Part shown: positions 1,473 through 37,810 of the stretch, piece after piece | How positions within the stretch are numbered: the first letter of the stretch is position 1 | How the letters are laid out: every line of letters begins with the position of its first letter | Source: Desulfitibacter sp. BRH_c19 | GTDB taxonomy: Bacteria; Bacillota; DSM-16504; Desulfitibacterales; Desulfitibacteraceae | Assembly (NCBI GenBank): GCA_001515945.1 | Contig: LOER01000031.1 | Location: forward strand, 1 to 64,000 | Length of the DNA: 64,000 nt | Direction of reading: 5' to 3' | Program-made: the position numbers and the translations under genes | Notes under the pieces: model-generated | The model's input: only the letters and a program-made list of their open reading frames with translations | Told to the model about the DNA's origin: nothing | Databases searched by the model: none

Positions 1473-2735
1473 TTGGGGAAGCGTAAGGGCTTGATTACTG
1501 ATATCCAAGGTAAAAAGGCAATAGTATTGACAAAAAAGGGGGAATTCCTGAAAGTTAATCTTCCTAAGGAAGCAGACGTTGGTAGCGAAATAGAATTTTC
1601 CACAAAGCTGAATTTTTTACCACTAGTTGCTGGTATTATTTTAATATTTTTTATTGGCTGGTCAATGATGTATATTACAAATCCGGCTATTGCAGCTCAT
1701 ATGACTTTAGAGGTCAATTCTGGATTAGAGTTAGCACTTGACAAAAAATTAAATGTAATCTCTGTAAAGTCCACAGATGAAGCAGGGGAAGAGTTTGTTA
1801 GCAAATTAAAGGTAAATGGAATGCAAGTAAGAGATGCTGTAGAAATAATTATGGATGAAGCGATAAGCCAAAATATTTTGAAACAAGGTCAAGTGGAGAA
1901 TCCTGAAATAATATTAGCAACCGTAACTTCAAATAGTCCAAAGGTATCTCTAAATGAAGAAGAAGTGGGCAAGTGGGTTTCTGCTAATTTAGATAAACAT
2001 GAGCTGACAAATGATGTAATGGTACAAAGAGGTTCCACAGAAGACTGGGAAAAAGCTAAAAAAGAAAAAATGCCTCCAGCAAAATACATAATGATCAAGA
2101 AAATTGAAGAAGAAGGCATTGTTGTGGCCGAAACCCAAGAGGAATTGTTGGAAATTGATGTAAGAGATCTAGTTAGAATAATCAATGAAAAGAAGACAAA
2201 ATCTAATATTAAGGACCAAAAAAACCAAAAAAATCAAAAAGACCAAAAAGACCAAAAAGACCAAAAAGATCAAGAGCTTGTCATGGATGAATTCAATGAA
2301 GATCCTCATGAGGAAGACATTAATGAAAAACCGGATATGAAAGAGTCTACGAAGGAAGAGCGAATTAACAATAATAATTCATCTAGGAACGAGCCAGGTA
2401 GAGGTCATAAAGATAATAATTCACAGCAGGGATCTAAGGAATCTAGAGTTTCTAAGGAAGCTACTATGGAAACTGAATCTACTATGACTGAATCTCCTAT
2501 GGTAACCGAAGCTACTATGGAAACTGAAGCTCCTAAGGAATCTAAAGATTCCACTAGGCCAAATAATATATCAGATCAGGATGAAGTGAAGGATAATGAA
2601 ATAGAGAGGAAATGGAATAAAGAGAATAATAATAAAGACATACTAAATTACATAAAAATATTTGACAATAATAGGAATGTAGATGATTTCTCAATTCACT
2701 TAAAAAGAATACCCGGTTTTAAAAAGCCATATTAG
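1473..2735 (+). CDS. rsgI: RsgI-type anti-sigma-I factor
   Basis: A TTG start preceded by AAAGGGGG gives 420 residues. Residues 3-45 form the RsgI N-terminal beta domain (KGLITDIQGKKAIVLTKKGEFL) that binds SigI in the cytoplasm. Residues ~49-69 are one transmembrane helix (VAGIILIFFIGWSMMYI). Residues ~75-235 form an extracytoplasmic domain like the conserved middle part of RsgI proteins. The remainder is low complexity: a run of DQK/NQK tripeptides at about residues 247-268, acidic and Asn-rich stretches, and repeated Met-Glu-Thr-Glu / Ala-Thr-Met units. There is no carbohydrate-binding or glycosidase domain of the sort attached to clostridial cellulosome RsgIs. The low-complexity tail ends in a short less-biased segment. 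Coupling to sigI is clear; the signal sensed is unknown. Confidence 0.88.
   Translation: MGKRKGLITDIQGKKAIVLTKKGEFLKVNLPKEADVGSEIEFSTKLNFLPLVAGIILIFFIGWSMMYITNPAIAAHMTLEVNSGLELALDKKLNVISVKSTDEAGEEFVSKLKVNGMQVRDAVEIIMDEAISQNILKQGQVENPEIILATVTSNSPKVSLNEEEVGKWVSANLDKHELTNDVMVQRGSTEDWEKAKKEKMPPAKYIMIKKIEEEGIVVAETQEELLEIDVRDLVRIINEKKTKSNIKDQKNQKNQKDQKDQKDQKDQELVMDEFNEDPHEEDINEKPDMKESTKEERINNNNSSRNEPGRGHKDNNSQQGSKESRVSKEATMETESTMTESPMVTEATMETEAPKESKDSTRPNNISDQDEVKDNEIERKWNKENNNKDILNYIKIFDNNRNVDDFSIHLKRIPGFKKPY
2214..2276 (+). repeat. 9-bp microsatellite (GACCAAAAA-like) coding Asp-Gln-Lys repeats in rsgI
   Basis: About seven tandem copies of a 9-base unit (GACCAAAAA, with AACCAAAAA and AATCAAAAA variants) encode DQK/NQK tripeptides. 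The last units are nearly identical at DNA level, so length change by slippage is plausible and would stay in frame. Confidence 0.8.
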
Positions 2736-2853
2736 CAGAATAATTTCTGTTTGGTTTACAGAAAATATAAAAAGTATCATATTCTGCAGGAGATAATAGG
2801 ATTTTACCGAGGAGATTCAAGTTTTAAAAAGAATTAAACAATAAAGGCTACTT

Positions 2854-2882
2854 GGGTACATAATTTTTGTTAATATGTGCCC
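2854..2882 (+). other. Hairpin or operator-like inverted repeat before the first corrinoid gene
   Basis: GGGTACATA and TATGTGCCC flank an 11-base spacer and pair over 9 positions with one G-U. It lies about 45 bases before the corrinoid-protein start. It has no T-tract on the plus strand, so it is not an ordinary terminator. It could be a protein-binding site or a leader hairpin. Confidence 0.4.
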
Positions 2883-2926
2883 ACTTTAAAAAAATAGAGA
2901 ACAAAATTTTAAGGAGGTAAATGTAA

Positions 2927-3559
2927 ATGGCAAACTTTGAAGAGCTGTCAAATGCAGTAATTGCTGGTAATGAGGCAAAGGTTAAGGATCTTACAAAAGC
3001 TTTAGTTGACCAGGGAGGAGATCCATTAGAAATTATTAACCAGGGTTTAGTAGCAGGTATGACTGTAGTTGGAACAAGATTTAAGGCTGGGGACATGTTT
3101 GTTCCTGAAGTTTTAATGGCAGCAAGATCTATGCATGGTGGGATGGATATCGTTAAGCCACTTATTGCTGATGCTGATGTACCTACTAAAGGTAAAGTTG
3201 TTATAGGAACTGTTAAGGGTGACCTTCATGACATTGGTAAAAACTTGGTTGGTATGTTAATGGAAAGTGCTGGATACAATGTAGTTAACTTAGGAGTAGA
3301 CGTTCCTCCAGAAAAATTTGTTGAAGCTGTTAAGGAACACAATCCTAGATATGTAGCTATGTCTGCACTTTTAACAACTACTATGTTGGCTATGAAAGAT
3401 ACAATTGAATTATTAAAAGAAGAAGGCTTAAGAGACAAAGTTAAGTGCTTAATCGGCGGAGCTCCAGTTTCTCAAGAATTTTCAGATGAAATCGGCGCTG
3501 ATGGATATGCACCTGATGCTGCTTCCGCAACTGAACTTTGTGACAAGCTACAAGCTTAA
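2927..3559 (+). CDS. Methyltransferase cognate corrinoid protein (MtbC/MttC-type)
   Basis: This 210-residue protein has the two-domain layout of small corrinoid proteins: an N-terminal helical cap (residues 1-85) and a C-terminal B12-binding Rossmann domain. The lower-ligand motif DxHxxG is intact (D99, H101, G104 in GDLHDIGKNLV), followed by GVDVPPEKFVEA and LIGGAPVS. Proteins of this family carry cobalamin that is methylated by a substrate-specific methyltransferase and demethylated by a second enzyme. The next genes encode a pterin-binding methyltransferase and a corrinoid activator, fitting such a system. It has a strong site AAGGAGGTAAATGTAA before ATG. The methyl donor is not identifiable because no MttB/MtaB/MtbB-type gene lies in the window. 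Confidence 0.9.
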   Translation: MANFEELSNAVIAGNEAKVKDLTKALVDQGGDPLEIINQGLVAGMTVVGTRFKAGDMFVPEVLMAARSMHGGMDIVKPLIADADVPTKGKVVIGTVKGDLHDIGKNLVGMLMESAGYNVVNLGVDVPPEKFVEAVKEHNPRYVAMSALLTTTMLAMKDTIELLKEEGLRDKVKCLIGGAPVSQEFSDEIGADGYAPDAASATELCDKLQA

Positions 3560-26979: not shown

Positions 26980-27927
26980 ATGAATAGTTTTAAAAAAAAG
27001 ATAAAGTTATTTACTGGTAATGCTCATCCTCGTCTAGCAGAAGAAATATCTGAATACCTGGGTATGCCACTTGGCTGTTCACAAATTCAACGTTTTAAAG
27101 ATGGGGAAATTGCAATCGCAATAAATGAAAGCGTACGAGGAGCTGACGTTTATGTAATTCAGCCTACCAGCAGTCCTGCCAACGAGCATATTATGGAATT
27201 GTTAATCATGATTGATGCTTTAAAACGGGCCTCAGCTCAAAGAATAACTGCTGTAATTCCCTATTATGGTTATGCACGTCAAGAAAGAAAGGTTAAAGCT
27301 AGGGATCCAATATCTGCCAAGCTTGTAGCTAATTTAATTACTGCGGCAGGTGCTAATAGAGTGATTGCCATGGATTTACATGCCAATGCAATTCAGGGCT
27401 TTTTTGATATACCATTTGATCATCTAGTTGGTGTACCTATTTTGGCAGAATATTTTAAGAAGAAAAAACTTGAAAACTTTATTGTTGTTTCTCCTGATAT
27501 TGGTGGTGTTACAAGGGCCAGGGATTTAGCGCAAAGGCTGGGATCTGAAATTGCAATTATTGATAAAAGAAGACCTGCTCCGAATCAAGCGGAAGTGATG
27601 AATATCATTGGTAAGGTACAGGGGAAAAATGTTATTATGACTGATGATATTGTAGATACAGCCGGCACCATATGTGGCGGTGCAGCTGCTTTGATAGAAA
27701 GGGGAGCCGAAAAGGTTTATGCTTGTTGTACCCATCCTGTACTTTCTGATCCAGCATTAGAGAGAATAGAAAATGCTCCATTTGAGGAGTTTGTGGTTAC
27801 AAACTCTATTCCTATCAAAGAAGCAAAATTACCAAACAAAATGAAGGTGCTGTCCATTGCACCTTTATTAGGAGAAGCCATGATTAGAATACATGAGCAT
27901 CTATCAGTAAGCAAGCTATTTGATTAG
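26980..27927 (+). CDS. prs: Ribose-phosphate pyrophosphokinase
   Basis: 315 residues, typical class I PRPP synthase. Signatures: [19 protein letters not shown] at the N terminus, RIFKDGEI-like [65 protein letters not shown], and the PRPP loop [12 protein letters not shown]. It makes PRPP for purine, pyrimidine, His and Trp synthesis and supplies the ligand of PurR encoded upstream. It has GGAGG before ATG. Its last four bases overlap the convergent PRC-barrel gene. Confidence 0.97.
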
Positions 27928-28640
27928 GATTTCTTAGTGTCTTGTGTTTCCTGTTTATTTTCTGTAAATTCTTCTGGGGAACAATCATTGCCCTGGAGGT
28001 TCTCTTCTTTTTGAGATGTGAGGTTTTTTAGAGTGGTTGATAAGTGTTTTGACCATTTAATAGTGGAACCTTTTGTTGTGTTCCATAATTTAGAACTTGA
28101 GCCTTTTAATGAATCCATTTTTTCTGATAAACCATCTTCTGATAAAAGAAGTGCTTCCTTGGAACCAGCTTTTGCTATGATGGCGTCATTACCAATGGTA
28201 GTAACTTGAGAAACAGGTAGTTCTGCACTTCCCCTAAAGATTTTTTCATAAATTTTGCCTTTAACTAGCAAACTATTGATTTGACCTGTTTTAACGTCAA
28301 ATATAAAATCTTCTACCGATCCCAGAATGGAACCCTCCTCTGTGATTATTGGTGTTCCAAAAAAGTTAAGTTTTTGTTTTACTAGCTTTCCAAGGGGTGA
28401 CTTTATAGATGCCCTTTCTAAACAATTACTATATTTAACAGTAATTATTTCATCAATGCTATGTACTTTATCATAGGAGATTATCATTTTATCTTTAAAA
28501 AGTGCTTTGCTTTCAAGCAATAAGGCAGCAACAGTAATGTTGTCAGGGTTGATAATAAGTCCCTTGAGTTTTCCAATTTGTTGTCCATTTTGTAAACTTA
28601 TGATTATTTTACCTTGAACGTTTTTACCAGTAAATTTCAT
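27924..28640 (-). CDS. PRC-barrel domain protein
   Basis: 238 residues on the minus strand with GGAGG upstream of ATG. Two PRC-barrel-like beta domains are visible, about residues 5-75 ([34 protein letters not shown]) and 88-160 ([34 protein letters not shown]). A C-terminal ~80-residue polar tail follows ([27 protein letters not shown]). PRC barrels occur in RimM and in membrane- or sporulation-related clostridial proteins (YlmC/YmxH type). It is inserted between prs and ctc, opposite to the flow of the surrounding genes. Function is uncertain. Confidence 0.8.
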
Positions 28641-29413: not shown

Positions 29414-29446
29414 AAAAACCTGGTGATAATGCCAGGTTTTTAACTA
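29414..29446 (+). terminator. rplY terminator
   Basis: AAAACCTGG and CCAGGTTTT pair around TGATAATG and end in TTTTT, just before pth. Confidence 0.85.
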
Positions 29447-29460
29447 TGGTGGTGAATAAG

Positions 29461-30027
29461 GTGAAATTAATTGCCGGATTGGGTAATCCTGGAAAAAAAT
29501 ATGAGGCAACTAGACACAATGTAGGATTCATGGTTGTGGATTACATTGCTGATATGTGGAACGTAGAGTTTAATAAGACTAAAGAAAAGGGTTTAATTGC
29601 TGAAAGCTACTATCATGGTGAAAAAGTAATATTAGTTAAACCTCAGACATATATGAACTTAAGTGGAGTATGTGTTGGTAGTCTGGTTAATTTTTATAAA
29701 ATACCTATAGAAGATGTAATTATAGTTTATGATGATCTAGATTTGGAAGTGGGCACAATTAGAATAAGGCCTGCGGGATCTTCAGGAGGACACAAGGGAA
29801 TCCAATCCATTATTAATCACCTAGCCACTAATGAAATCATTCGGGTCAAAGTGGGAATAGGTAGAGATGCAGACCATGCAATAGACCATGTTTTAGGTAT
29901 TTTTAACAAAACTGAATGGGATATAATAAAAGAAGTAATTCCTAAAGCTTCAGAAGCTGTTGAAAAATTACTAGCTGGGGATGTAGAAAAAGTTATGAAT
30001 CTATATAATAAAAGCTATAGAACTTAG
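29461..30027 (+). CDS. pth: Peptidyl-tRNA hydrolase
   Basis: GTG 29461 was chosen: it gives the family N terminus (M)KLIAGLGNPGKKYEATRHNVGFM and has GGTGGTG upstream, whereas the earlier ATG lies on the end of a terminator. The 188 residues contain the catalytic N and H region of TRHNVGF, KPQTYMNLSG, DDLDLEVGTIRIRPAGSSGGHKGIQSI. It frees peptides from peptidyl-tRNA. The gene corresponds to spoVC of Bacillus. Confidence 0.95.
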   Translation: MKLIAGLGNPGKKYEATRHNVGFMVVDYIADMWNVEFNKTKEKGLIAESYYHGEKVILVKPQTYMNLSGVCVGSLVNFYKIPIEDVIIVYDDLDLEVGTIRIRPAGSSGGHKGIQSIINHLATNEIIRVKVGIGRDADHAIDHVLGIFNKTEWDIIKEVIPKASEAVEKLLAGDVEKVMNLYNKSYRT

Positions 30028-30052
30028 CTATTAAACAAAGCAGGAGAAAACT

Positions 30053-30439
30053 ATGGATTTTATCTTAACGGGTTTGTTTGCTAGTTTCATGGCATGGGTT
30101 GTTAACAAATTAATTCTTTCAAAAGAAGGCCTTAAAGGAGTAGTATTCTTTGGGCCTTTTACTGAAGAATTGTTTAAAACAGGAATGGCATTATTCTTTA
30201 ATACCTCCATAATTCTGACCCATATTGTATTTGGCTTTGTAGAAGCACTAATAGACTATAGAAATACAAACAATAGCACGGTGGCTATAGTAAGCCTTGC
30301 TTCTCATACTATTTTGGGTATAATTACATATGGGTCATACATATTAATAGGTAATATTTTTATAGCCTTTTTAATAGCTGTGATAATACACATTTTGTGG
30401 AATAGATTGGTGATAAATATTGTGGTGCAAAAATCATGA
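30053..30439 (+). CDS. Small PrsW-like membrane protein, putative intramembrane glutamic protease
   Basis: 128 residues, almost wholly hydrophobic with four or five predicted membrane segments. It carries the spaced motifs of the PrsW (M82) family: EELFK (E38, E39, K42), FGFVEALIDY (G61, E64), SHTILG (H85) and IHILWN (H113, N117). PrsW cleaves anti-sigma factors in the membrane. Typical PrsW proteins are longer (about 200 residues or more), so this is a minimal core. It sits between pth and mfd, where Bacillus has fin. A sigI-rsgI pair lies elsewhere in the window, but no link can be shown. The assignment rests on motif reading. Confidence 0.6.
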   Translation: MDFILTGLFASFMAWVVNKLILSKEGLKGVVFFGPFTEELFKTGMALFFNTSIILTHIVFGFVEALIDYRNTNNSTVAIVSLASHTILGIITYGSYILIGNIFIAFLIAVIIHILWNRLVINIVVQKS

Positions 30440-30501: not shown

Positions 30502-33500
30502 TTGATTGTAAAAGAAATTAGCAAAATGCTACATAAGGACGAAGACTTCAAGGCTTATATAAAGGGTTTACAGAAATCTGCTGGGCAGCTAATACATGGA
30601 TTGACAGATAGTCAACAAAGTTACTGGATTGGAGCAACGGCACATAAGACTCAAAAACCGCTAGTTATTATTACTGAGACTGTTGCAGATGCCAAAAACA
30701 TGATGTTTGACTTGCTAAACTTTTTTGGTGAAGGTGAAGTGGATTATCTTCCTCCTAGAGAGATTCTTCTTCATGGTCTTTTTGCTAGAAGTCATGAATT
30801 GTCAGAAGAAAGAATGAAAGTTCTATCTAGGATTGTTAATGGTGAGCTAAATTGTTTAGTGTTACCTATAGAAACCTTAACACAGAAAATGATTCCTATA
30901 GAAATCTTTGGAAAATCCCAAATAAATATAAAAGTTGGAGATACTTATCCCCACTATGAATTAAGTAATAAATTAATTTATTTAGGGTATGAAAGGGTAG
31001 ACCTTGTACAAGGTTCAGCTCAATTTAGTATCAGGGGTGATATTTTTGATATCTATCCGTTGAACCAAGGTAACCCTATAAGGATAGAGTTTTTTGATGA
31101 CCAAATTGAAACAATGAGATACTTTGATGCTGTTTCTCAAAGATCCAAGGGACACTTACAAAGCTTTTATATTCATCCTGCGAAAGAGCTCCTTGCTGAT
31201 AAAGAAACAAGGGAAAGGGCAATAAAAAGGCTAACACTTTATGGAGAGGAGTATATCCAAAGATTAGCCAGAAAAGGAAAACGCAATGCTGCAAGGAAAC
31301 TTAAAGACCTAGTTGATGAGTGGTTGAGCTATTTGAAAAATGATCTCTGGTCAGCTGATATGGATAAATTACAGCCATTTTTTTATGAAAACCAGGTATC
31401 TATCATCGATTATTTCAAAAAAGGGTCATTAATATTTGTAAGTGAACCCATTAGGGTTATAGAAACATTAAGAAGAACAGAAGAAGAAAGGCTCACTAAT
31501 TTAACAGAGTTACTGGGTCTTGGAAAAGCTCTACCAGAATTAAAAGATACTGAATATAGCAGTCAGGAAATAATGGAGTTTTTTAAAAGCCAAAATGTGA
31601 CCTATTTATCAGCCTTACCAAGGGAAATACCACAGACAGAGTTAGTAAATATATTAAGCTTTACTGGAAAAAGTGTACCTCCCTTTCATGGAAAGATAAA
31701 TCTCTTACTAGATGAGTATAAGGCATGGAAAAAAAGAGGCTATACAGTAGCTTTAACTGTGTCGTCTAATGAAAGGGCAGTACGGCTTAAGGAATATTTA
31801 TGGAAAGAAAAAATAGAAATCCCATTTATAAAAAACATCACTTCTGTAGATGAAATAAATCAAAAGTCTTTTATAGCTATTGGTAATTTTGGCAAAGGAT
31901 TTGAAATTCCATCTATCAAGCTAGTTGTAGTGTCTGATGAAGAACTATTTGGCAGAAAGAAACTTACAAAAGTTCTTCGGACATTTAAAGACGGCGCTAA
32001 AATAGGTCATCACGGGGAGCTTAAGGTGGGTGACTTTGTTGTTCATGTGCAACATGGTATTGGAAAGTATTTAGGTATTGAACATCTTAGGATTGGTGGG
32101 GTTTTTAGAGATTATTTGAATATACAATATGCAGGACAAGATAAACTTTATGTGCCAACAGATCAGGTAGAATTGATACAAAAGTATGTGGGAGCAGAGG
32201 GACATAGACCAAAGCTTCATAAACTAGGTGGTACTGACTGGCAAAAGGTTAAGACTCGAGTAAAGGAATCTGTTCGGGAAATGGCTAAACAGCTTCTGGA
32301 ATTGTATGCTACCAGAGAATCTGTAGAAGGATACACATTTCCACCTGATGATAATCTTCAGGAATTATTTGAGGATTCTTTCCCCTATTCTGAAACCCCT
32401 GATCAGTTAAAGGCAATCAAAGATACAAAAATGGATATGCAGAAGAAAAAGCCAATGGATAGGCTAATATGCGGTGATGTGGGCTATGGAAAAACAGAAA
32501 TTGCATTACGAGCTGCCTTTAAGGCTGTTATGGATTCTAAGCAGGTTGCTGTTTTGGTACCAACCACAGTTCTGGCGCAGCAGCATTATCAAACATTTAC
32601 AGAAAGATTTGCAGATTTTCCAGTTGTAATAGATACCTTAAGTAGGTTTAGAACTGCTAAAGAACAAAGGGGAGTTGTGGAAGGGACAGAAAAAGGTCTT
32701 GTAGATATTGTAATTGGTACACACCGACTTCTTTCCGGCGATATAAAATTTAAAAATCTGGGGCTGTTAGTAGTAGATGAAGAACAAAGATTTGGAGTTA
32801 GTCATAAGGAAAAAATTAAACAAATCAGAAAAAATGTTGATGTATTAACTTTAACAGCTACACCCATCCCAAGGACTATGCATATGGCTCTTGCTGGAGT
32901 TAGAGATATGAGTGTTATCGAAACACCACCTGAAGACAGATATCCTGTACAAACATACGTAATTGAATATAGTGATAACCTTGTAAGAGATGCCATCCGT
33001 AAGGAGTTAGATAGGGGAGGGCAGGTATATTATATTCATAATAAAATTGAGGATATCCTTAAGGTAAAACTACACCTGGGGAAAATGGTACCCGAGGCAT
33101 CTATAGGGGTAGCACACGGTAGGATGAAAGAGGATGAGCTTGAGCAGGTAATGTTAGACTTTATTGAAGGTAATCACCATGTGTTACTTTGTACTACGAT
33201 AGTTGAAAATGGGTTGGATATCTCCAATGTTAACACTCTAATTGTAGATGAAGCAGATAAACTGGGCCTTTCCCAGTTATATCAGATTAGAGGTAGAGTC
33301 GGAAGAACAAATAGAATTGCTTATGCTTATTTTACTTATAAAAAAAATAAGATATTAAACCAGCAGGCAGAGAAAAGGCTGGGAGCTATCAGGGAGTTTA
33401 CAGAATTTGGATCAGGATTTAAAATTGCGAAACGGGATTTGGAAATCCGTGGAGCAGGAAACATTCTTGGACCAGAGCAACATGGGCATATGATAGCAAT

Positions 33501-34038
33501 TGGTTTTGATTTGTACTGTCGCTTATTAGAGGATTCTGTTAGACAATTGAAGGGAGAAAGACAGCATGAAAACCTTCAAGAAACTCTTGAAATGGAAGTA
33601 AATGTTTCGGCATATGTGTCTAATAAGTACGTACCAGACAGCAGTCAAATAATGGATGTATATCAGAACTTAGGAAATTGCGAGAGCCTTGAAGAGGTTA
33701 AAAGTATAGAGGAGAGTTTAATTGACAGATATGGAGAAATGCCAGTAGAAAGTAATAATTTAATTACCCTTACAAGAATCAAAGTGATTGCTAAGAAATT
33801 CAAGGTAATAAAGATAAAGCATGTAGGGGATGAGATAGAAATTGCCTTCGCTCCAGACTTTATTATTAAAGGGGAAAAGTTGTTCGAACTGGCAAAGGGA
33901 ATGGATAGAAGGTTAACTTTTTCGGGAGCAAAAGGCTTGATGATTAAATTAAGGACCAGTAAATTAAGCCAAAAACAAATACTAGATTTTCTGGAAAATA
34001 TTTTTCTTAAGCTAGCAGCTCTTGAAGGAAATCATTAG
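30502..34038 (+). CDS. mfd: Transcription-repair coupling factor
   Basis: 1178 residues starting at TTG. Domain order matches Mfd: UvrB-homology region (~30-330), RNA polymerase interaction domain with VGDFVVHVQHGIGKYLGIEHL and YLNIQYAGQDKLYVPTDQ (~500-560), RecG-like translocase with Walker A CGDVGYGKTEIALRA, DEEQ box VVDEEQRFGV, TATPIPRTMHMAL, VENGLDISNVNTLIVDEAD and QLYQIRGRVGRT, and the C-terminal TRCF domain. It removes stalled RNA polymerase at lesions and recruits UvrA. Length is full. Confidence 0.98.
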   Translation: MIVKEISKMLHKDEDFKAYIKGLQKSAGQLIHGLTDSQQSYWIGATAHKTQKPLVIITETVADAKNMMFDLLNFFGEGEVDYLPPREILLHGLFARSHELSEERMKVLSRIVNGELNCLVLPIETLTQKMIPIEIFGKSQINIKVGDTYPHYELSNKLIYLGYERVDLVQGSAQFSIRGDIFDIYPLNQGNPIRIEFFDDQIETMRYFDAVSQRSKGHLQSFYIHPAKELLADKETRERAIKRLTLYGEEYIQRLARKGKRNAARKLKDLVDEWLSYLKNDLWSADMDKLQPFFYENQVSIIDYFKKGSLIFVSEPIRVIETLRRTEEERLTNLTELLGLGKALPELKDTEYSSQEIMEFFKSQNVTYLSALPREIPQTELVNILSFTGKSVPPFHGKINLLLDEYKAWKKRGYTVALTVSSNERAVRLKEYLWKEKIEIPFIKNITSVDEINQKSFIAIGNFGKGFEIPSIKLVVVSDEELFGRKKLTKVLRTFKDGAKIGHHGELKVGDFVVHVQHGIGKYLGIEHLRIGGVFRDYLNIQYAGQDKLYVPTDQVELIQKYVGAEGHRPKLHKLGGTDWQKVKTRVKESVREMAKQLLELYATRESVEGYTFPPDDNLQELFEDSFPYSETPDQLKAIKDTKMDMQKKKPMDRLICGDVGYGKTEIALRAAFKAVMDSKQVAVLVPTTVLAQQHYQTFTERFADFPVVIDTLSRFRTAKEQRGVVEGTEKGLVDIVIGTHRLLSGDIKFKNLGLLVVDEEQRFGVSHKEKIKQIRKNVDVLTLTATPIPRTMHMALAGVRDMSVIETPPEDRYPVQTYVIEYSDNLVRDAIRKELDRGGQVYYIHNKIEDILKVKLHLGKMVPEASIGVAHGRMKEDELEQVMLDFIEGNHHVLLCTTIVENGLDISNVNTLIVDEADKLGLSQLYQIRGRVGRTNRIAYAYFTYKKNKILNQQAEKRLGAIREFTEFGSGFKIAKRDLEIRGAGNILGPEQHGHMIAIGFDLYCRLLEDSVRQLKGERQHENLQETLEMEVNVSAYVSNKYVPDSSQIMDVYQNLGNCESLEEVKSIEESLIDRYGEMPVESNNLITLTRIKVIAKKFKVIKIKHVGDEIEIAFAPDFIIKGEKLFELAKGMDRRLTFSGAKGLMIKLRTSKLSQKQILDFLENIFLKLAALEGNH

Positions 34039-35336: not shown

Positions 35337-35490
35337 AAGGAGAGTGATTTTTATTATTTCCATTACTTTTATCTTTAACTTTTGATTTAAGGATGGAAAA
35401 AAAAGAATAAATGGATGTTGGCAGTTATATACTAACAATATAAAGATCTTACAGGCTTTAACCTTGATGAAAAGGAGGGAGAAAGAATTT

Positions 35491-36054
35491 ATGAAAGCCA
35501 CAGGAATTGTCAGGCGAATTGATGACCTAGGTAGAGTAGTAATACCAAAAGAGATACGCCGAACACTTAGAATTCGTGAAGGTGATCCTTTAGAAATATT
35601 CGTTGACCGAGAAGGCGAAGTTATTTTGAAAAAGTATTCTCCTATAGGTGAATTAGGAGATTTTGCTAAGGAATATGCTGATTCACTCTATGAAGCAATT
35701 GGTCATATAGCTTGTATTGCAGATAGAGATACCATAATAGCTGTTTCAGGGGCTCCTAAAAAAGAGTTTCTAAACAAACCTATTGGCGCAGCGGTAGAAA
35801 AGGTCATGGAAGATAGAAAATCTGTGCTTATTAATGACCCAGGAAAGCACAATTTGTGCAAGGAATGCGCCATTATAGAAGATGAAGAAGACTGCAAGTT
35901 TACTTCTGAAGTGATAGCTCCAATTATTGCTGAAGGGGATCCTATCGGTGCTGTAATATTATGCACAAAAGAGCCAGGACAGAAAATGGGTGACATGGAA
36001 TTGAAATTAGCAGAAACAGCTGCAGGTTTTTTAGCAAAACAGATGGAACAGTAG
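35491..36054 (+). CDS. spoVT: Stage V sporulation regulator SpoVT
   Basis: ATG 35491 has AAGGAGGG 11 bases upstream and gives the family N terminus MKATGIVRRIDDLGRVVIPKEIRR. The 187 residues comprise an AbrB-type swapped-hairpin DNA-binding domain (1-50) and a C-terminal GAF domain (~60-180). SpoVT acts in the forespore on sigma-G genes in Bacillus. mfd-spoVT-spoVB order is kept. Confidence 0.95.
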   Translation: MKATGIVRRIDDLGRVVIPKEIRRTLRIREGDPLEIFVDREGEVILKKYSPIGELGDFAKEYADSLYEAIGHIACIADRDTIIAVSGAPKKEFLNKPIGAAVEKVMEDRKSVLINDPGKHNLCKECAIIEDEEDCKFTSEVIAPIIAEGDPIGAVILCTKEPGQKMGDMELKLAETAAGFLAKQMEQ

Positions 36055-36211: not shown

Positions 36212-37810
36212 ATGACGGGTCAAAACTTTCTGAAAGGAGCATTTATTTTATCCATTGCTGGGTTAATTGTAAAATTAATGGGTGCTTTATATAGAATACC
36301 TTTAGCTAGACTAATCGGTGGAGAAGGTATGGGTCTATACCAGATGGCATATCCTGTATATACAATGATTCTTGCACTATCTACTGCTGGGATACCAGTT
36401 GCCATATCGATCTTAGTTGCAGAGAAAAATGCTAGAGGAGATTATCAAGGAGGAAAAAGGGTATTTTGGGTATCCTTAATACTATTATCTATAATCGGAG
36501 CATTTTTTTCAGTACTTTTATATTTAAATTCCTTTTGGCTTGCAGGAAATATTTTATACGATGAAAGGGCCTTCTTTGCAATTATAGCTATTTCCCCTGC
36601 AATTTTTATAACAGCCATAAGTTCAGCTTTTAGGGGATACTTTCAAGGAAATCAGACTATGGTTCCTACCGCCTTATCTCAAGTGTTTGAACAACTAGTC
36701 AGGGTAATAACTGTAGTAGGCCTTGCCTATTTCTTGCTTCCTTACGGTATTGAATTTGCTGCAGCTGGTGCAACCTTTGGTGCTGTGACAGGGAGTCTTG
36801 CAGCCGTTGTAATTTTGATAATATTCTACTTAGTTCATAGAGCTAAGGGTATAGGCAAGCCATCGTCTTACAATTTCATTAAAAAAGAGTCTATCCTATC
36901 TATAATGATAAGAATTGCACTAATAGCAGTTCCCCTTTCCATAGGCGGTTTAGTAATGCCTGTAATGCAATTAATAGATGCTACCATTGTTCCGTTAAGA
37001 CTGCAAGCAGCTGGTTATTCCATAGCTAGAGCAACAGAGTTATTTGGTCAATTTTCTGGAATGGCTAATACTTTAATTAATTTGCCCACCATTATAACTA
37101 TTTCTTTAGCGGTTAGCCTTGTGCCTGCAATTTCTGAGGCAATGGCGAATAAAAATATCCAGCAGGTTAACAAAAGAATAGGAGTAGCTTTATGGATAAC
37201 TTGTTTATTATGCATTCCAGCTGCAGTTGGATTATGGTTATTAGCTACTCCTATTGCTATACTTCTTTATGATATTGCAGAGGTTGGTGTCAGTATAGCA
37301 GTCCTTGCCCCTGCCACCCTCCTCCTTGGACTATATCAAACTACAAGTGGTGCTTTGCAGGGTACAGGTAAAACCTATTTGCCTGTAAAAAACCTCTTAA
37401 TCGGTATCATGTTAAAGGGTTTATTAAACTATATATTGGTGGGAATACCGCTAATAGAAATAAAAGGTGCAGGAATTGCTACTGTTGTGGGTTTCTCAGT
37501 TGCATTATTGTTAAATTACCGTGATTTGAAAAAAAATACAGGTTTTAGTATTGCGTTGTATAAAAGTATTGTAGTACCATTAATTGGAGTTATTATCATG
37601 AGTTTTTCTGTGTTATGGATATATGGTTCATTAATTAATAGAGTAGGAAACAGCTTGACCGTTTTAGTTTCTATAATAATAGGAGGAATAACCTATGGAT
37701 TGGTTATACTATTTTTTGGAGGAGTCAAGGCATCTGATCTAGAAATGATACCTGGTGTGGGTATTAAAATAACAAAGTTATTGCTTAGATTCAAAATTGT
37801 GAGGAGATAA
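36212..37810 (+). CDS. spoVB: Stage V sporulation protein B, MOP-family flippase
   Basis: 532 residues with about 14 membrane segments and the MVF/polysaccharide-transport signatures (GALYRIPLARLIGGEGMGLYQMAYPVY near the N terminus, FRGYFQGNQTMVPTALSQVFEQLVRV, GALQGTGKTYLPVKN). SpoVB is needed for spore cortex formation, probably as a lipid-linked precursor flippase. AGGAAAAGGCGG precedes ATG. The next gene is only 2 bases away. Confidence 0.93.
   Translation: MTGQNFLKGAFILSIAGLIVKLMGALYRIPLARLIGGEGMGLYQMAYPVYTMILALSTAGIPVAISILVAEKNARGDYQGGKRVFWVSLILLSIIGAFFSVLLYLNSFWLAGNILYDERAFFAIIAISPAIFITAISSAFRGYFQGNQTMVPTALSQVFEQLVRVITVVGLAYFLLPYGIEFAAAGATFGAVTGSLAAVVILIIFYLVHRAKGIGKPSSYNFIKKESILSIMIRIALIAVPLSIGGLVMPVMQLIDATIVPLRLQAAGYSIARATELFGQFSGMANTLINLPTIITISLAVSLVPAISEAMANKNIQQVNKRIGVALWITCLLCIPAAVGLWLLATPIAILLYDIAEVGVSIAVLAPATLLLGLYQTTSGALQGTGKTYLPVKNLLIGIMLKGLLNYILVGIPLIEIKGAGIATVVGFSVALLLNYRDLKKNTGFSIALYKSIVVPLIGVIIMSFSVLWIYGSLINRVGNSLTVLVSIIIGGITYGLVILFFGGVKASDLEMIPGVGIKITKLLLRFKIVRR

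Follow-up and report, generated by a model that had tools for sequence, protein, structure and literature searches.

Between pth and mfd, a position shared with the gene for Fin (YabK), the anti-sigma-F factor (PF10955), the genome of Desulfitibacter sp. BRH_c19 carries a gene for a small membrane protein, here called X. What is this protein, and does it stand in for Fin? The initial annotation took it for a minimal PrsW-like protease in the fin position. The gene was examined in a window of 64,000 nt (contig LOER01000031.1, positions 1 to 64,000), in which the locus comprises the following features.

29446..30027, + strand: pth (spoVC), upstream neighbour of X (open reading frame)
30042..30046, + strand: likely ribosome-binding site of X (aggag), 6 bp before the ATG, read from the sequence
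30053..30439, + strand: X, a gene for a 128-aa membrane protein (open reading frame, translation, homologues, invariant residues and PrsW profile match)
30502..34038, + strand: mfd, downstream neighbour of X (open reading frame)

Gene X and its homologues

The gaps between pth and X and between X and mfd are 25 bp and 62 bp, respectively. The 128-aa frame proposed between the two genes is open throughout, has a likely ribosome-binding site, and is represented by homologues in other genomes. Comparison of the window with two genomes of the same genus gave dN values of 0.06–0.17 and dS values of 0.5–1.2 and, with dN well below dS, X is under purifying selection. This, together with the wide spread of homologues and their invariant motifs, confirms beyond chance that X is a real gene.

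Other genes of the window were identified by reading. On the reverse strand, a 238-aa gene (27924-28640) between prs and the L25/pth block appears by eye to encode PRC-barrel-like repeats. SpoVT-like (35464-36054) and SpoVB-like (36212-37810) genes lie downstream of mfd, the same arrangement as in the Bacillus order, pth-fin-mfd-spoVT-spoVB.

Whole-genome searches of 120 relatives, using the window protein first and then an alignment (A1) of 48 homologues, detected X in 62 genomes, its own included (E 2e-24 or better). Across the phylum, 125 of 379 genomes, each at least 90% complete, carry a homologue. The rows of A1 were picked because they resemble the window protein as a whole, not because of their motifs, and some truncated or very divergent matches were omitted. 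Aligned homologues from outside the genus are 122–158 aa in length and 23–38% identical to the window protein, and mean column identity across the 48 is 31%. Four motifs stand out against this background.

30164..30178, + strand: motif 1, E38-E39-x2-K42 (EExxK), in 48/48 homologues
30233..30244, + strand: motif 2, G61-x2-E64 (FGxxE), with G61 and E64 invariant and F60 in 46/48
30305..30319, + strand: motif 3, H85-x3-G89, invariant; the His is common to PrsW and absent from type II CAAX proteases
30389..30403, + strand: motif 4, H113-x3-N117 (HxxxN), invariant in the 48 homologues

Nine residues are identical in all 48 proteins (E38, E39, K42, G61, E64, H85, G89, H113 and N117), while N18, P35, H57 and F60 are almost invariant and position 68 is occupied by D or E in 47. 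The EExxK, GxxE, H and HxxxN motifs that had been read from the single protein are present exactly as described, and all of their residues belong to the invariant set.

Relationship to PrsW and CPBP proteases

A published PrsW model assigns EExxK to TMH3, a His specific to PrsW to TMH5 and HxxxD to TMH6, in a four-helix core that the type II CAAX proteases share; the His of the third motif is reported for PrsW and not for those proteases (PMC4602095). X has the corresponding elements in the same order: EExxK (E38, E39, K42), FxxxE (F60, E64; the PrsW set reads GFAxxEN), an extra His (H85, aligned with the PrsW His) and the final HxxxN/D (H113, N117). The spacing between motifs 2 and 3 is similar in the two families (median 23 in X and 24 in PrsW), whereas motifs 1 and 2 are 25 residues apart in X versus 38 in PrsW, and the N-terminal stretch ahead of motif 1 measures about 38 residues in X versus 81 in PrsW. 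PrsW has about eight membrane helices (PMC3482391) and 200 or more residues (213–240 aa in the set used here, compared with 122–158 aa for the X family); the window protein, at 128 aa, has about five hydrophobic segments, a helix count judged from hydropathy.

Alignment of A1 by hhalign with a profile built on 12 PrsW proteins of this phylum placed the four motifs in register over 132 columns (score 35.3, E 7e-5, probability 63%, i.e., moderate). EExxK was paired with EExxK, FGxxE with FAxxEN, His85 with the His of AHA, and HxxWN with HGxYD. The highest score among 40 column-shuffled controls, which preserved the hydrophobic blocks, was 23.4, and reversed controls scored 17.4 or less. Against CPBP, A1 scored 33.3, with the alignment confined to the last motif, and PrsW against CPBP scored 21.3. 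A single pairwise comparison with a CPBP-type protein showed 33% identity over X residues 31–117 (93 columns, E 3e-8). The CPBP/type II CAAX, Rce1-like family (PF02517) resembles X in its EE motif and HxxxN but differs in having EExxxR and FxxxH, where X has invariant EExxK and FGxxE, and X adds the invariant His85.

The PrsW-type homology suggested in the initial annotation is thus borne out by four motifs that align in order above controls and by the third-motif His, but does not extend to membership of the Pfam family: the curated cut-off of PF13367 is 23.5 bits, and the window protein reaches 13.1. Weak matches to PF13367 were given by 13 of the 48 members (E up to 0.1; best E 0.0013) and to the Rce1-like model by 4 of the 48 in a Pfam scan, and neither the single sequence nor the 48 members matched any Pfam or NCBIfam model above its curated cut-off. 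No match over the PF13367 cut-off occurs in the window genome. A profile search of the PDB returned no sequence relatives, and a single-sequence AlphaFold model made without an alignment (mean pLDDT 79, pTM 0.46, long helices merged) had no relevant Foldseek/PDB matches.

X was not filed under PrsW because of its score below the curated cut-off and its small size. At about half the size of PrsW, and with no family match above cut-off, it is better filed as new, and sequence comparison supports a putative minimal family within the PrsW/CPBP superfamily, nearest to PrsW. A canonical PrsW is encoded by a separate gene in 11 of 36 X carriers; since both are present in these genomes, replacement of canonical PrsW by X was rejected.

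The main rival to a protease is a non-proteolytic membrane partner of the same fold, a scaffold or inhibitor resembling APH-1 or the Abi-domain protein Abx1. X is small, its protease fold and activity are predictions, and there are precedents: APH-1 belongs to the superfamily (PMC4602095), and Abx1 is described, in the part of the source consulted, as acting through a sensor kinase and interacting with the CovS kinase (PMC3578759). We regard this alternative as unlikely, because the catalytic-type residues are all invariant among homologues that are only about 30% identical, which would be unusual for a scaffold.

Conservation of the locus and relationship to fin

The initial annotation had suggested looking for the same gene elsewhere, and X does precede mfd across the phylum: of 82 homologous loci, 76 have mfd downstream of X in the same orientation, usually no more than a few hundred bases further on and never beyond 1.2 kb, and some of the remaining loci lie at contig ends. 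All 20 loci from outside the alignment-building set also have mfd beside X. The upstream neighbour is pth in 57 of the 82 loci, and at about 16 loci unrelated genes replace pth while X is still found before mfd, so that the tighter link is that of X with mfd. Loci where X precedes mfd without a pth neighbour are L015, L029, L035, L043, L050, L052, L055, L060, L061 and L064, and also L166, L167, L170, L172, L174, L176 and L181. At L050, a gene for a 302-aa lipoprotein-like protein (2433-3341) lies between X and mfd and has, by eye, the look of a GerM-domain germination protein.

Fin sits, like X, between pth and mfd, but is a small four-cysteine protein. X does not have the two CxxC motifs of Fin, and Fin-like ORFs are separate neighbours, placed between X and mfd at about 14 of the first 62 loci and 6 of 20 further loci (about 20 of 82 in total). 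Several are confirmed by PF10955 (e.g., the L013 protein, 8.6e-15), and others, which are shorter or divergent, do not reach the cut-off. The gene fin also occurs without X (L135, L136, L137 and others), and the order pth-fin-mfd in L135 and L136 agrees with the Bacillus-type fin position cited in the initial annotation. In the window genome, where X is present, a convincing fin was not found.

Short four-cysteine ORFs (47–62 aa) between pth or X and mfd were seen at L023 (1882-2025), L039 and L042 (both 2370-2522), L044 (537-725), L053 (2350-2538), L145 (2126-2290) and L151 (2108-2284), with coordinates given on the mfd strand. They are below the Fin Pfam cut-off and look like minimal or divergent versions of Fin. 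A short four-cysteine protein at L142 also matches Gin weakly.

X was rejected as a replacement for fin, as the two coexist in the order pth-X-fin-mfd. Coexistence at some loci and fin without X at others suggest that the ancestral order was probably pth-X-fin-mfd, with separate losses later.

The proposal that X parallels fin by occupying its place does not survive these comparisons, Fin-like ORFs being found beside X and their presence being independent of it (14/62 versus 6/30). A related idea gives X control over a sporulation sigma factor: by cutting a membrane-bound anti-sigma factor or a related inhibitor in the forespore, for instance, it would parallel Fin through a different mechanism. 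There is a precedent in B. subtilis, whose PrsW cleaves the anti-sigma factor RsiW (PMC4602095), and X often adjoins Fin-like anti-sigma genes. The statistical independence of X and these coexisting genes counts against the idea, as does the absence of any membrane-bound anti-sigma gene beside X, where the usual neighbours are pth, fin-like genes and mfd. Analogy with PrsW leaves room for a sigma-factor role, but nothing observed here supports one, and we consider it rather improbable.

Distribution among endospore-forming bacteria

X is nearly restricted to endospore-formers. Among the 379 genomes, SpoIVA (TIGR02836) was detected in 123 of 125 X carriers versus 200 of 254 non-carriers (Fisher p 2e-8), a p value that overstates the evidence because the test treats genomes as independent and ignores relatedness; the carriers nonetheless come from many families. 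Only 2 of the 56 SpoIVA-less genomes have X, and both are fragmented assemblies (G079, 280 contigs; G316, 470 contigs), the former with BofA. In the 120-genome sample, all three SpoIVA-less carriers have BofA. X is missing from 200 of 323 spore-formers, which places it outside the universal sporulation set. A search upstream of X at 59 loci for enriched forespore, mother-cell or sigma-A promoter patterns gave no useful signal.

X might instead be a housekeeping membrane protein that has no link to sporulation and rides along with mfd, given that pth and mfd are housekeeping genes and that many spore-formers manage without X. Its near absence from SpoIVA-less genomes argues against this, and we think it improbable. 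As a candidate intramembrane protease restricted to spore-formers, X could also be imagined as an alternative enzyme for processing pro-sigma-K or a similar precursor, taking the place of SpoIVFB/BofA in some spore-formers. This is very improbable: 53 of 62 X carriers possess BofA, as do 36 of 58 non-carriers, the window genome being among those that have it, and replacement of SpoIVFB/BofA was rejected on these counts.

Proposed function and significance

The active-site signature and the near restriction to endospore-formers make it probable that X is a spore-formation protease overlooked until now. The reading we favour, with moderate confidence, is a minimal intramembrane protease of the PrsW/CPBP superfamily, probably acting in endospore formation. 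Its fold of about five membrane helices would consist of the PrsW four-helix catalytic core plus one leading helix, with the extra helices and loops of PrsW missing. By analogy, the catalytic residues may be E38/E39, H85 and H113, arranged around a cavity within the core of helices and supported by E64, K42 and N117, and the conserved Glu and His residues would serve to cut a membrane-embedded substrate. The gene travels with mfd, and often with pth and fin, as a member of what is probably an old cluster of spore-formers, and is passed on together with Fin and not instead of it.

No description of the family was found in the literature or family libraries searched. Neither a gene between pth and mfd nor PrsW in sporulation was found described, which is weak evidence given the thin coverage of subscription literature. 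The main text of the sporulation survey by Galperin et al. 2012 names pth, and does not name PrsW, CAAX, mfd or fin (PMC3533761).

The Bacillus-type genomes in the sample have fin at the pth-mfd locus and no X. Sporulation gene lists have been built mainly from Bacillus subtilis. X is a candidate for a new and testable sporulation component, present in a third of the sampled genomes of the phylum and missed by Bacillus-based lists. More tentatively, X may found an undescribed minimal protease family of about five helices that is dedicated to endospore formation and stems from an ancestral pth-X-fin-mfd cluster, incomplete in Bacillus; we lean slightly against committing to this wider proposal as a whole. 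With X, the PrsW/CPBP active site would occur naturally in a very small form, and the pth-X-fin-mfd order could serve as a marker for change in the spore cluster between lineages. If the proposal is true, there would be an extra, unrecognised proteolytic step in sporulation across a large part of the phylum.
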